This document shows, one piece after another, positions 6,124-11,412 of a DNA stretch of 64,000 nt (its first letter is position 1; each line of letters starts with the position of its first letter). The DNA comes from Hyalangium ruber. Lineage in GTDB: Bacteria; Myxococcota; Myxococcia; Myxococcales; Myxococcaceae. Below the pieces are notes generated by a model, which saw only the letters and a program-made list of their open reading frames with translations, searched no databases and was not told the DNA's origin. Position numbers and translations under genes: made by a program. The stretch is taken from the NCBI RefSeq assembly GCF_034259325.1, contig NZ_JAXIVS010000005.1, positions 62,001 to 126,000 of the forward strand. Direction: 5' to 3'.

Positions 6124-8526
6124 CTAGCGCGGCGCCATCTGCTTGAGGATGTTCACCGTCTCCGCCGCGGCGGCACTCGGCGTCAGGGCCGTATCGGCGA
6201 TGCCGGAGACCACGCGGGTGATGTTGTGGTCCACCGCGCCCTCCTGTGCCCACGTGTCCACGCCCGGCGCGGTGATGTAGACGGAGTATGCGTGGTGCCC
6301 CGAGCCGGGCCGCTCGCCAATCACGTGCAGGATGGCGCGGCGCGAGTTCCGATCCGGCAACGCGCCGAAGAGGGTCTCGCCGATCCGGTAGCCGGCCCGC
6401 ACGCGCCCGGCGCTGACGATGATGTGCTCGGGGGCGACCTTGAAGCCCACCGCCTCCAGATCCGAGCGCACCCGCTGCAGGTACGGCGCCAGGTGGCCCT
6501 CGTCCGTGAGCGCCCACGCGTTGAGCCCGTCGGAGATGACGATCTGCACGTCATACTGGCCCGCCTGGCTGTCGCGCAGGGAGCGCAGCCTGTCGAGCGA
6601 GCCCGCCGAGAGCTCCTCGCCCGTGGGCGGGTGGAGGATGTAGTCCTGGCGATCCTTGGACTCGGTGGCGACAGTGACCGCCTGGGCGATGGACGGCGCG
6701 AAGGTGGCGGGCAGCTCGGCGAAGATGCTCGCCTTGGCGTCCTCGTAGAGGAAGCGCACCTCGCGATCGAGGTCCGCGTTCAGGTCCCACGTGTTGGCGC
6801 CGTGGCCCTCGGCGATGAAGACGCCCCGCTTGCGCACCTCGGTCATCTGCGCGCGCGCCTCGGAGAGAATGTCCGCCTCCGAGCGCGTGTCTCCCTTCTT
6901 GCGGCGGTACTGCAGATACACCCAGGAGGGATCACCGAAGTGCGGCCCCGGCCGGCCCTCCGCGTCGACGACGCCCAGCTGCTGGAAGAAGGACCACATC
7001 CGGTCCTCGACCTTGTAGCCGAACTTGCTGCGGATGCGGACGTGGTCCTGGAACGCCGTGGTGAGGTAGCTCAGCATCGGATCGTTCTTCGTGGGCAGCG
7101 CCATCAGGTAGCCCGGGTTGGCCGGCATGATCTGATCCAGGCACCAGTCCAGATCGTCCAGCGTCACCTCCATGTGCAGCGTGGAGCACACGTCCAGGCC
7201 GATCATCAGCCCGTGCAGCTTGCCCATGACGATGTCCTCGAGGCAGCAGCGCACCAGCTGCTCCTTCGAGCGGAACACCTCCGGACCGATGAAGCCCGCC
7301 ACGTCGTTGACGTGGACCCAGGGCCGAGCCGGCTTGCCCGCACCGAGCTGGGCCGTGGCCACCTTCTGCTTGAGCACGCGCGCGAAGCCGTACTTGCGCG
7401 ACTCGTGTACCACCATGTCGAAGCCGTTGCCGTGGCCGTTGGTGCCGTCGGCGCCCTGCCCCGTCTCGAAGTAGAGCCCGTACTGTCCCGTGCGCTTGGA
7501 GGCGTGATCCAGCATCTTGGGGATCGTCACGTCGAACGTCTTGTTCGCGCCCTCGGTGCCGCCCAGGCTCTGGAACCAGAGCGCGGTCGAGCCCGGGGTC
7601 CGCGTCTCCACCTCGGCCTGGATGTCGATGTGAGACAGCACACAGTGCGGGAAGGTCTCCGCGAGATCGAACGTATCCAGCAGGTCCTTGAGCGCCAGCT
7701 CCACCGCCTGCACGGAGAACACGTCGCTCGAGACCGGGTTGGTGCCGAGCACCACGTCCCCGACGCCGAAAGCCCACCCGTCGAGCACCTGCCAGCGGAT
7801 GTCTTCCACGTTGTCGGTGGGCGAGTTGGGCTGGATGCGCGCTCCCAGGTAGCCCTTGGCGCCGAGGTTGCTCCCGGGCAGCGGGTTGAAGACCTTGCGG
7901 CCCACGGCGATGAGCTCCTCGTTGCTCATGAGCTTGACGATGCAGCCGATGACGTCGCTGCTCAGCCCTCCCATGATGGCCTTGATCTCCGCCTCGCTCT
8001 TGTCGAGCAGGAAGCGCTTGAGCTCTCCCATCGTCCACGTGGACACCTGGGCCGCCTGGGAGGAGTCCACGCCCTGCTCGATGAGCTGGAAGAGGCCGTC
8101 GTCGAAGAGCGGGTGCGCGCGCAGGTCGCCGATGCGGGTGTTGGACAGCAGCGTGCGGGCGTTGACGCGGGACGTCTCATCCGCCGCGGCGAGCGCGGCG
8201 GCCTCGTCTCCCTCTTTGAAGGGGTTGGCCGCGCCGATGAGCTTGTTGAAGGTGGCCTGATCGAAGCCGCCACGCGTGCGGTCGAGGTACGCGAGGAGAT
8301 CCTCCCCCGGCTTCACCTGGGGGATGTAGACGCCGGGAGGCGGTTCGGTGGGCTTCACCAGCGTGTCGTCACTGCAGGCCGCGGCGATCGCCGTGGCGCC
8401 CAGCAGCGCCGACATGAAGGTGCGACGGCGCATCATCACCGGCTGCCACGGATTTACCGGAGCGCGCTGGGGAGAGGTTCGCGAGCGCGCACCCTTGACG
8501 CGGCGCTGGGGGTGGAACGTCTTCAT
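6124..8526 (-). CDS. Fused ethanolamine ammonia-lyase EutB-EutC with export-type leader
   Basis: 800 residues in one frame. Residues ~60-545 match the EutB large subunit: GARIQPNS, GTNPV, LYFETGQG, GLDVCST. The equivalents of E. coli substrate-site Arg160, Gln162, Asn193, Glu287 and Asp362 are all present (here R230, Q232, N263, E354, D445). Residues ~630-800 match EutC: DVQIVISDGLNA, SAGRVRAGYRIGE, HVIGERPGSG. Normally these are two polypeptides that bind adenosylcobalamin and convert ethanolamine to acetaldehyde and ammonia. The N-terminus is odd: RRRTFM (33-38), a hydrophobic stretch and lipobox-like AAAC (Cys51) resemble a Tat/lipoprotein signal. The start at 8526 has GGAGG 8 nt upstream. 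No eutA, microcompartment or transporter genes lie nearby. Confidence 0.88.
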   Translation of the reverse strand: MKTFHPQRRVKGARSRTSPQRAPVNPWQPVMMRRRTFMSALLGATAIAAACSDDTLVKPTEPPPGVYIPQVKPGEDLLAYLDRTRGGFDQATFNKLIGAANPFKEGDEAAALAAADETSRVNARTLLSNTRIGDLRAHPLFDDGLFQLIEQGVDSSQAAQVSTWTMGELKRFLLDKSEAEIKAIMGGLSSDVIGCIVKLMSNEELIAVGRKVFNPLPGSNLGAKGYLGARIQPNSPTDNVEDIRWQVLDGWAFGVGDVVLGTNPVSSDVFSVQAVELALKDLLDTFDLAETFPHCVLSHIDIQAEVETRTPGSTALWFQSLGGTEGANKTFDVTIPKMLDHASKRTGQYGLYFETGQGADGTNGHGNGFDMVVHESRKYGFARVLKQKVATAQLGAGKPARPWVHVNDVAGFIGPEVFRSKEQLVRCCLEDIVMGKLHGLMIGLDVCSTLHMEVTLDDLDWCLDQIMPANPGYLMALPTKNDPMLSYLTTAFQDHVRIRSKFGYKVEDRMWSFFQQLGVVDAEGRPGPHFGDPSWVYLQYRRKKGDTRSEADILSEARAQMTEVRKRGVFIAEGHGANTWDLNADLDREVRFLYEDAKASIFAELPATFAPSIAQAVTVATESKDRQDYILHPPTGEELSAGSLDRLRSLRDSQAGQYDVQIVISDGLNAWALTDEGHLAPYLQRVRSDLEAVGFKVAPEHIIVSAGRVRAGYRIGETLFGALPDRNSRRAILHVIGERPGSGHHAYSVYITAPGVDTWAQEGAVDHNITRVVSGIADTALTPSAAAAETVNILKQMAPR

Positions 8527-8750
8527 GGGATTGCCTCCGGAGGGACCGAGGAGAGGGACGACACGCGCTGGGGATGAGGTGCGGCCTCCCGCTCGGCTTC
8601 GAGGGCCACCTGGAAGGGCTCCAATTCTCGCGCCCGGACCGACATCGGCGCAAACCGGGTTTCCCCTTCGAGCAGGTCTGGCCAACCCGTCGGGTCTTGT
8701 CTCGGGTCAGGACTGGCCCGTCGCCCACGTAGTTGCTATAAATCGCCTGA

Positions 8751-8774
8751 AGCATTTCGAAGCATTTCGAAGCA
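8751..8774. repeat. 10-bp tandem repeat, possible operator
   Basis: AGCATTTCGA occurs twice in direct tandem (8751-8760, 8761-8770) and starts a third time (AGCA, 8771-8774). Each unit junction creates TTCGAAGC, so palindromic TTCGAA cores recur every 10 bp, one helical turn. It lies 29 nt before the start of the orphan 868-residue gene and 225 nt before eutBC on the other strand, just after TTGCTATAAATC, which looks like a −10 region. Confidence 0.5.
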
Positions 8775-8805
8775 CCGCTGCTCAAGGCGTCCTACGGGAG
8801 GGATG

Positions 8806-11412
8806 ATGCCTCTGAACATCGACGAGCTGGCGCAGCGGGCGGGGTTCCCGTCTCGTGACGCACTCGCCAAGCGGGTGCTCGAGCTGTGGGACGACCCCAC
8901 CCAGAGCCACCGCAATATCGGCATCAAGTTGCTCGAGCTCCAGCGCGGCAAGCGCAGCTGGTGGCTGAAGCGCCCCGAGGCCGCCGAGGCCCTCGCCCAC
9001 GCACTGGAAGTGGACCTCGCGGAACTTCAGCTCGCCCGGACCGCGGGCATCGGGCTCTTCGCGTTCGAGGACTTTCCTCGCGCCCGGCCGTTCGACCCCG
9101 AGCAGGAGACGCCCTGTTTACTGGGCAACGACGACTGGTTCGAGCCCCTGGGGCCGCGCTCGCGTTGGATTCATGCGCCTCCCGGCTCGGGGCGGAGCTT
9201 CACGGTCCACTACCACCACTATCGGTATGGGGCGCGCCTCGTCCACGCCTCCACGCTCTCCGAGGCCCTCGCGCAGCTCCCCCGCTCCGAGCCCGTGCTC
9301 ATCGAGGTGGAGCGGGCCGAGGATGAGGATCAGGCAATCGAACAACAGCTCCTGGCTCGGGAGGACGCGGTGTTCGTCATCGCGCCCTTCCCCTGCTGGG
9401 CGATCCGCAATCCCCGTCGCCAGACGGGCGGCAGCGGCAAGGAGAGCCCCGACCCCGAGGGGCCGCAGTGGCCCGAGTATCGCTCCTGGCAGCCGCACGC
9501 TCAGTGGCGGACACGGTTCATCGAGTGGATCTCCCAGCGCGTCGATCCGGGCGCGCAGATCAACCCTCGGGAGCTCTCCGCCTGGGTGGAGCGAGAGGAT
9601 CCCCAGGCGCGGCTCTTCACGACGCCCGGCGATCTGCTGCCCCTGTGTGCCTTCGCGCATGAGGCTGGCGGGAAGGCCTGGAAGCTCAAGGCACGGCGCG
9701 AGTTCACGGAGCCGTGGCTCAAGGGGCGCTTCTCCCGCGAGGAGGAGAGCCCCACGCCCAAGGAGCTCTGGCTTCGCTACCAGGGGCAGGAGGCGGTTCG
9801 CACCCTGGTCCACCGCTGGTTCCAGGGGATGGAGCCCTGGATCGCGCCGCTGCCCAAGGAGCGCTGGCTGGAGTTCCTTCCGGAGGCTCCGTTCGATCTC
9901 ACGACCGTGAAGCGCCTCACGGAGGCGATGGTCACCCTCAAGTCGAAGAAGGAGCGCGCCCACAAGAGCTCGGAGCTGCTCGCGGCGCTCGGCACCACCC
10001 GTCGGGAAGATGCGTTCCTGCACCTTGTTTCCGCCCGGTTCTTCCAACCCCAGGGCAATGGCACCTGGAGCTTCCGGTTCGCATGGCTGGCCAGCCTGAT
10101 GGCCAAGGATCTCGTGATGGAAGCGCTGCAAACGAGCTCGCCTGAGCAGTGGGGACACTGGATCGTGGGTCCCGGCCGCTGGGAGGTGATCGACGGGCTG
10201 CTCGATGAACTCAAGGAGCGGGAGCTGCTCGAGCTCGTGGGCCGAGCCGTCGCGGGCTTCCGCCTGTCCTCGCTGGGCTCCGTCGGCGCGGTGGAGGCAC
10301 TGTTCGCCGCTCTCGGGCGTCGCCTGCGGACGGAGGGCGTTCGCCTGGATGCCGCGCGCGTCATGCCGCTGTGGAATCTCCAGCGCACCACGCTGGTGAC
10401 TCGGATCGACGGCGGTGCCCCGGTGCCGCTCACCCGGCACAGCACCGCCACGTGGAAGACGCCGCCGCAGTGGCTGGAGGACTGTTGGGCCTGGAGCCTT
10501 CGGGTCGAGGCGTCTCCGCTCCTCGTGCCGGGGCTCGAGTGGCTCTATCCGGGCTGGACCCAGCCTTCGCTCAGCCGCCTTCCGGGATGGATGAACACGG
10601 TGACGCCGACGGCTGAGCTGTTCGCACTCGCTCCGGAGGTGGTCGCTCGCTGCCAGGGCACCTCGGTGCCTCCGCACCTGCCCGCCTTCTTGCTGCCGGC
10701 GTGCCTGCTGGTGGCCGAGGAGCGCGGATGGGCCCTGGAGGCCGAGCACTTGAGGGCCCTGACGCGCGAGCCTCAAGCCCTGAGCTGGCTCCTGGAGGCC
10801 TTGAACCAGCGCCCCGCCGAGATGCGCCAACGGATGGCGGCGCGGTTCTGGAAGCTCTGCCTGGCGACTCGACCGGACTTGTATACGCAGGAGAAGCCCG
10901 ACTCGCCCCTGCGGCGCTTCATCGACGAGCACCTGACGGCCGAGGACTTCCGCTCGACGCTCTCGGACGCGCGCCTGCCGGAGCTCGCCGCCAACCTCCA
11001 GGCCGTGCCTCCGCGCCTGCGGAACGTCGTCCTCCGGGAGGTCCTCACGCGCCGGCCCGACATCACCGCGAGCAGCCTGTTCAAGGAGCGGGATGAGCTG
11101 GACGCGGAGTGCCTGGAGTTGCTGCTGCCCCACCACCGGTCCGCGAAGATCCTGACTCAGTCCTTCTGGAAGCGGTTCCCGCAGCGGGCGATGGAACTCA
11201 CCCACGAGGCGGCACGGCGCGGGGATGAGCGGCTCCAGCAGTGGATCGAGTCGGCGCCTGTCGAGCTGTACCCCCAGCTCCTGGGGATCTTGGAGTCCTC
11301 GGCTTCGCTGCCGGCGTGGGCGCAGATGTGGCTCGTGCGCTGGCTGCCGCAAGCGGGCGCAATGGCGGATCGCGTCCACGCACTGTGGATGCGGACCGCT
11401 CAGGCGGCCTGA
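8806..11412 (+). CDS. Large orphan protein with N-terminal HTH-like segment and P-loop-like motif
   Basis: 868 residues, or 869 if the ATG at 8803 is used; I prefer 8806 because GGGAGG is only 2 nt from 8803. The first ~80 residues are helical and basic, like a small DNA-binding domain. A P-loop-like motif APPGSGRS follows at about 125-132 and a hydrophobic-acidic strand (PVLIEVE) at about 165-172 could be Walker B. The remainder, about 250-860, is Trp/Leu/Glu-rich and mostly α-helical, like the repeat tail of STAND-type NTPases. There is no signal peptide or membrane segment. I do not recognise the family. Its stop overlaps the convergent gene's end by 13 nt. An unusual tandem repeat precedes it, so autoregulation is possible. 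Confidence 0.82.
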   Translation: MPLNIDELAQRAGFPSRDALAKRVLELWDDPTQSHRNIGIKLLELQRGKRSWWLKRPEAAEALAHALEVDLAELQLARTAGIGLFAFEDFPRARPFDPEQETPCLLGNDDWFEPLGPRSRWIHAPPGSGRSFTVHYHHYRYGARLVHASTLSEALAQLPRSEPVLIEVERAEDEDQAIEQQLLAREDAVFVIAPFPCWAIRNPRRQTGGSGKESPDPEGPQWPEYRSWQPHAQWRTRFIEWISQRVDPGAQINPRELSAWVEREDPQARLFTTPGDLLPLCAFAHEAGGKAWKLKARREFTEPWLKGRFSREEESPTPKELWLRYQGQEAVRTLVHRWFQGMEPWIAPLPKERWLEFLPEAPFDLTTVKRLTEAMVTLKSKKERAHKSSELLAALGTTRREDAFLHLVSARFFQPQGNGTWSFRFAWLASLMAKDLVMEALQTSSPEQWGHWIVGPGRWEVIDGLLDELKERELLELVGRAVAGFRLSSLGSVGAVEALFAALGRRLRTEGVRLDAARVMPLWNLQRTTLVTRIDGGAPVPLTRHSTATWKTPPQWLEDCWAWSLRVEASPLLVPGLEWLYPGWTQPSLSRLPGWMNTVTPTAELFALAPEVVARCQGTSVPPHLPAFLLPACLLVAEERGWALEAEHLRALTREPQALSWLLEALNQRPAEMRQRMAARFWKLCLATRPDLYTQEKPDSPLRRFIDEHLTAEDFRSTLSDARLPELAANLQAVPPRLRNVVLREVLTRRPDITASSLFKERDELDAECLELLLPHHRSAKILTQSFWKRFPQRAMELTHEAARRGDERLQQWIESAPVELYPQLLGILESSASLPAWAQMWLVRWLPQAGAMADRVHALWMRTAQAA

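Follow-up and report, generated by a model that had tools for sequence, protein, structure and literature searches.

The canonical ethanolamine ammonia-lyase of Escherichia coli (PDB 3ABO) is made of two separate cytosolic chains, EutB and EutC, which carry no signal peptide and have the reactivase EutA in their operon. Diol/glycerol dehydratase (PDB 5YRT, 1DIO) shares a related B12-dependent barrel fold and the radical elimination. To our knowledge, adenosylcobalamin radical eliminases have so far been regarded as residing in the cytosol or in compartments and as dependent on reactivation driven by ATP. The Tat-exported, cobamide-dependent reductive dehalogenases PceA and CprA provide a precedent for a cobamide enzyme that is exported folded, although they differ from a fused EutBC in belonging to an unrelated protein family and working without adenosyl radical chemistry. 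We found no literature on an exported or fused ethanolamine ammonia-lyase. The enzyme of Acinetobacter baumannii, with separate subunits encoded by eutBC, is functional without an EutA homologue or a microcompartment and is membrane-associated (PMC9426561), so that reactivase-independence has a precedent; the portions of that article drawn on here report no fused or exported form.

Fusion and predicted export set the protein described here apart from these known ethanolamine ammonia-lyases. Its gene lies in the window, a stretch of 64,000 nucleotides from the myxobacterium Hyalangium ruber, and has the following features:

6124..8526, minus strand: fused EutB-EutC gene, 800 aa, with ATG at 8526 and stop at 6124
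8534..8538, minus strand: Shine-Dalgarno-like GGAGG, 7 bases 5' of ATG 8526
8431..8526, minus strand: extended n-region of the predicted signal peptide, residues 1-32; MKT[FM] start conserved among Archangium-like relatives
8413..8430, minus strand: twin-arginine motif RRRTFM, residues 33-38; RR kept across the family
8377..8412, minus strand: hydrophobic core of the predicted signal peptide, residues 39-50; mean hydropathy 1.84 over 14 residues
8374..8376, minus strand: Cys51, probable lipidation residue; shared by each of the 12 exported copies examined from Myxococcaceae/Archangium
6949..8253, minus strand: EutB domain, the catalytic TIM barrel (residues 92-526), carrying R230, Q232, N263, E354 and D445
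6760..6888, minus strand: fusion linker, residues 547-589; conserved in the fused family
6133..6759, minus strand: EutC domain, residues 590-798; SDGL and GERPGxG motifs

As the original prediction had claimed, a single frame is open across both domains, which Pfam recognizes as EutB (residues 92-526, E 1.4e-138, 463 bits against a cut-off of 25) and EutC (residues 590-798, E 2.5e-31, 109 bits against a cut-off of 25.8). The NCBIfam model NF011649 (EutB) matches residues 85-545 with 606 bits (cut-off 554), and the NCBIfam EutC equivalog matches approximately residues 590-798 with 83 bits, short of its cut-off of 230, a point against reading the protein as an ethanolamine ammonia-lyase. PDB sequence matches were to EutB and EutC of ethanolamine ammonia-lyase only. 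The structure prediction proposed earlier as a check is confident for both domains in one chain (mean pLDDT 92.2, pTM 0.90) and matches E. coli EutB and EutC, with TM-scores by target length of 0.88 for chain A and 0.72-0.74 for chains B/D of PDB 3abo; diol/glycerol dehydratase is only distantly similar (0.46-0.49 by target length). A frameshift or assembly error that joined two genes, the first objection foreseen against the fusion, is refuted and has practically no probability left: the same join, with its conserved linker, recurs in about 90 relatives from independent assemblies and at another locus in the H. ruber genome, and nothing was found in its favour.

The active site is conserved. 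The residue numbers given earlier for the window protein (R230, Q232, N263, E354, D445) are correct and correspond to R160, Q162, N193, E287 and D362 of E. coli EutB; far from being lost, as had been considered, all five are invariant, as are S247, V326, F329, L402 and Y404 (E. coli numbering), in 90 of 90 fused members. The EutC residues SDGL, R206, GERPG, S239 and Y241 are invariant in 89 of 89. The fused family shares both domains, the fold and all substrate-binding residues with the canonical E. coli enzyme, from which it differs in sequence (the EutB halves are about 30-33% identical), and on its domains and active site the window protein can be assigned to the ethanolamine ammonia-lyase family. 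Several positions that are invariant in canonical enzymes are switched family-wide (EutB S295T; EutC R141E, D211Y, C258V, N261G), which suggests that cofactor or substrate preference may differ. An exported lyase with the same chemistry but a substrate other than ethanolamine, for instance some other vicinal amino alcohol, or one that uses a different cobamide, could explain these switches, and also the PotD/YdcS-like solute-binding protein gene found in four Desulfuromonadota-type loci; we regard this as unlikely, since the residues known to hold the hydroxyl and amino groups of ethanolamine are all invariant. As a separate observation, six cysteines of the EutB domain (105, 205, 337, 338, 357, 372) are placed identically in most of the fused proteins checked, exported or not, and four of them, including the CC pair, are lineage-specific.

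The protein starts with a predicted export signal that has an extended n-region, the twin arginine being preceded by 32 residues. This n-region is probably translated, because an MKT[FM] start preceded by a purine-rich, Shine-Dalgarno-like stretch occurs in eight Archangium-like sequences (the window and seven relatives), and because relatives differ in the N-terminal stretch with an excess of third-codon-position changes. The same evidence backs the start at 8526 better than one at 8436, which is not preferred. A later start had been named as a way in which the export signal might vanish, but a protein begun at 8436 would retain MMRRRTFM and the cysteine.

Export of the window protein, as judged from its sequence and those of its relatives, is well supported. 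A rule-based check found the features of a Tat substrate, namely a twin arginine, a weakly hydrophobic core and, by family search, TatC in the H. ruber genome. The AAAC before the domains is an atypical lipobox, and its cysteine follows the core invariantly in all 12 exported Archangium/Myxococcus-type copies, as expected of a lipoprotein, while it is not general in planctomycetes. The earlier reading of RRRTFM and Cys51 as export signals is supported, and export signals recur across the family. They are present in approximately 65 of the 88 distinct members checked, about 49 of the Tat-RR type, five of a Tat-like SRKxF type (Bacteroidota) and about 11 of the Sec type (Desulfuromonadota-like), where the Tat/Sec split is our own assignment in cases that were borderline for the rule; the rule itself identified 45 members with RR and a hydrophobic core, and L011, L015, L036 and L135 were added by eye. 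By the same rule, none of 31 canonical EutB proteins has an export signal. The family has kept export while its signals switch between the Tat, Tat-lipoprotein and Sec types, which argues strongly for genuine export. If the N-terminal segment remained uncleaved, it might merely tether the enzyme at the inner membrane on its cytoplasmic side, much as the EutA-free canonical EutBC of A. baumannii resides at the cell membrane (PMC9426561). We consider such a tether very unlikely in view of the twin-arginine consensus, the cysteine at the lipobox position in every exported myxobacterial copy and the Sec-type signals in another branch.

The original prediction had suggested a search for the same fusion in other Myxococcota and in Bacteroidota; it is present in both, and also in Planctomycetota, Desulfuromonadota/Desulfobacterales and Acidobacteriota, with about 90 distinct relatives of the same architecture. 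One scan of genome contigs yielded 43 relatives, mostly from Planctomycetota, the other hosts being Myxococcota, Bacteroidota (Algoriphagus, Euzebyella), Desulfuromonadales, Desulfobacterales, Geobacteraceae and one Acidobacteria MAG. In EutB profile searches of four phylum-level samples (195, 246, 296 and 198 genomes), scores were bimodal: canonical proteins reached about 600-733 bits, usually in frames of 450-570 aa, and the fused type gave full-length matches of 400-500 bits in frames of 690-1220 aa. Within the Myxococcota, we counted about 56 genomes with the low-scoring fused type and about 38 with the canonical type, and saw no genome with both.

In the tree, the fused family forms a single clade to the exclusion of canonical EutB (SH-aLRT 100). 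Signal-less planctomycete proteins (L035, L136) and the long-branched L123 stand near its base. The cytosolic myxobacterial copies form a single nested clade (support 99), so that the cytosolic state in myxobacteria looks derived on this tree; the exception is the signal-less L087, which has lost the hydrophobic segment and retains an MKTMH leader. H. ruber itself encodes a second, cytosolic fused copy, and one exported plus one cytosolic copy occur in all nine genomes checked that have both clades, H. ruber included, with EutB domains that are 70-74% identical between the two forms. Two Planctomycetota genomes contain another EutB-EutC fusion without a signal peptide (L130:5668-7869, plus strand; L133, on the minus strand of its locus), which the tree places with canonical EutB, so that it probably arose independently.

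The canonical eut arrangement, with separate EutB and EutC genes and EutA, is not present: the frame is fused and EutA is missing. The absence of EutA noted earlier for the window extends, by family search, to the whole H. ruber genome and to 14 other genomes with the fused gene, and as gene absence this points to an EutA-independent enzyme. Weak EutA matches (24-33 bits, partial at about profile positions 125-234, in frames of 420-490 aa, none of them in the Planctomycetota searched) were rejected as reactivases and would fit FtsA.

Neither the window gene nor the planctomycete genes have conserved neighbours, apart from antisense shadow frames and members of generic families, and no cobalamin riboswitch was found near the window, planctomycete, Bacteroidota or myxobacterial loci. 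An adenosyltransferase of the PduO type does occur in the H. ruber genome, as does a cobalamin riboswitch. Upstream of the fused gene, the window also holds a perfect 10-bp tandem repeat (8749-8774, GAAGCATTTC, 2.6 copies) and a divergent 869-aa frame without a Pfam match (8803-11412, plus strand).

A cobamide and aldehyde context is confined to the Desulfuromonadota/Desulfobacterales/Acidobacteriota branch. Importer genes of the BtuD, BtuF and BtuC types lie downstream of the fused gene in L032, L043, L118 and L122 and in part in L121 and L124; their best NCBIfam matches are corrinoid ATPase and vitamin B12 permease, below the equivalog cut-offs. CbiG, a corrin methylase and CbiJ are encoded upstream in L118, a SUMT-type gene, CobC and CobT downstream in L119, which also has a cobalamin riboswitch, and in L043 a riboswitch precedes a TonB-dependent receptor for which the B12 receptor is the second-best match. 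An aldehyde ferredoxin oxidoreductase gene lies at most about 6 kb away in seven loci, in differing arrangements. Six loci (L118:8614-9618, plus strand; L032, L043, L119, L122, L124) have a conserved membrane protein gene directly downstream, without a Pfam or NCBIfam match. The PotD/YdcS-like genes mentioned above lie near the fused gene, at L118:4957-6240 and L119:4912-6177 (both plus strand) and in L120 and L038; some loci also have a gene for a TorF-like porin farther upstream.

Because importer, corrin genes, riboswitches and the oxidoreductase adjoin the gene in this branch, its context makes an enzyme that depends on a cobamide more likely than a relic without B12, and by homology the same may apply to myxobacteria. 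The suggestion that the protein is a cobalamin-independent or non-enzymatic derivative is disfavoured by this context together with the invariant substrate residues. The importer, the riboswitch-preceded receptor of L043 and the nearby corrin genes would also suit a non-catalytic extracytoplasmic protein that binds or scavenges cobamides on the EutBC fold. Such a binder would have no need of the substrate residues, yet these are unchanged in 90 members, dozens of them Tat-exported, and the aldehyde oxidoreductase neighbours fit catalysis, which makes a binder quite improbable.

We therefore consider it fairly probable that the gene encodes an extracytoplasmic, envelope-located and EutA-independent ethanolamine ammonia-lyase; its activity and cofactor, like translocation itself, ethanolamine turnover and physiological role, are steps that we infer. 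EutB and EutC would be made as one chain, exported folded through Tat and thereby placed in the envelope, in myxobacteria with a lipoprotein anchor. A cobamide bound between the barrel of EutB and the domain of EutC would let the enzyme cleave ethanolamine by the usual radical route; the products, acetaldehyde and ammonia, could diffuse or be carried into the cell, while the cytosolic paralogue of the same genome would perform this reaction inside. Tat export would permit cofactor loading in the cytoplasm; Sec-exported Desulfuromonadota members, which have the corrinoid importer in their neighbourhood, would have to pick up the cofactor in the periplasm. We know of no route by which a spent cofactor could be exchanged outside the cytoplasm; the enzyme would run without EutA, and one might speculate that the fusion helps to retain the cofactor. 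The proposal that the ethanolamine stems from prey phospholipids is unsupported as a general role, because most members found belong to Planctomycetota, Bacteroidota and Desulfuromonadota, which are not known as myxobacteria-like predators; for myxobacteria it may hold.

The Pfam and NCBIfam labels EutB and EutC reveal neither the fusion nor the export, a blind spot of annotation that recurs. For the family as a whole, we give about equal credence for and against the view that it represents widespread, monophyletic, extracytoplasmic and reactivase-independent adenosylcobamide radical enzymes, with cytosolic and envelope isoforms per cell. If true, the existence of such an exported, EutA-free family in five or more phyla would imply one of two things: adenosylcobalamin chemistry takes place in the envelope, or the fold has been turned to the capture of extracellular cobamides.
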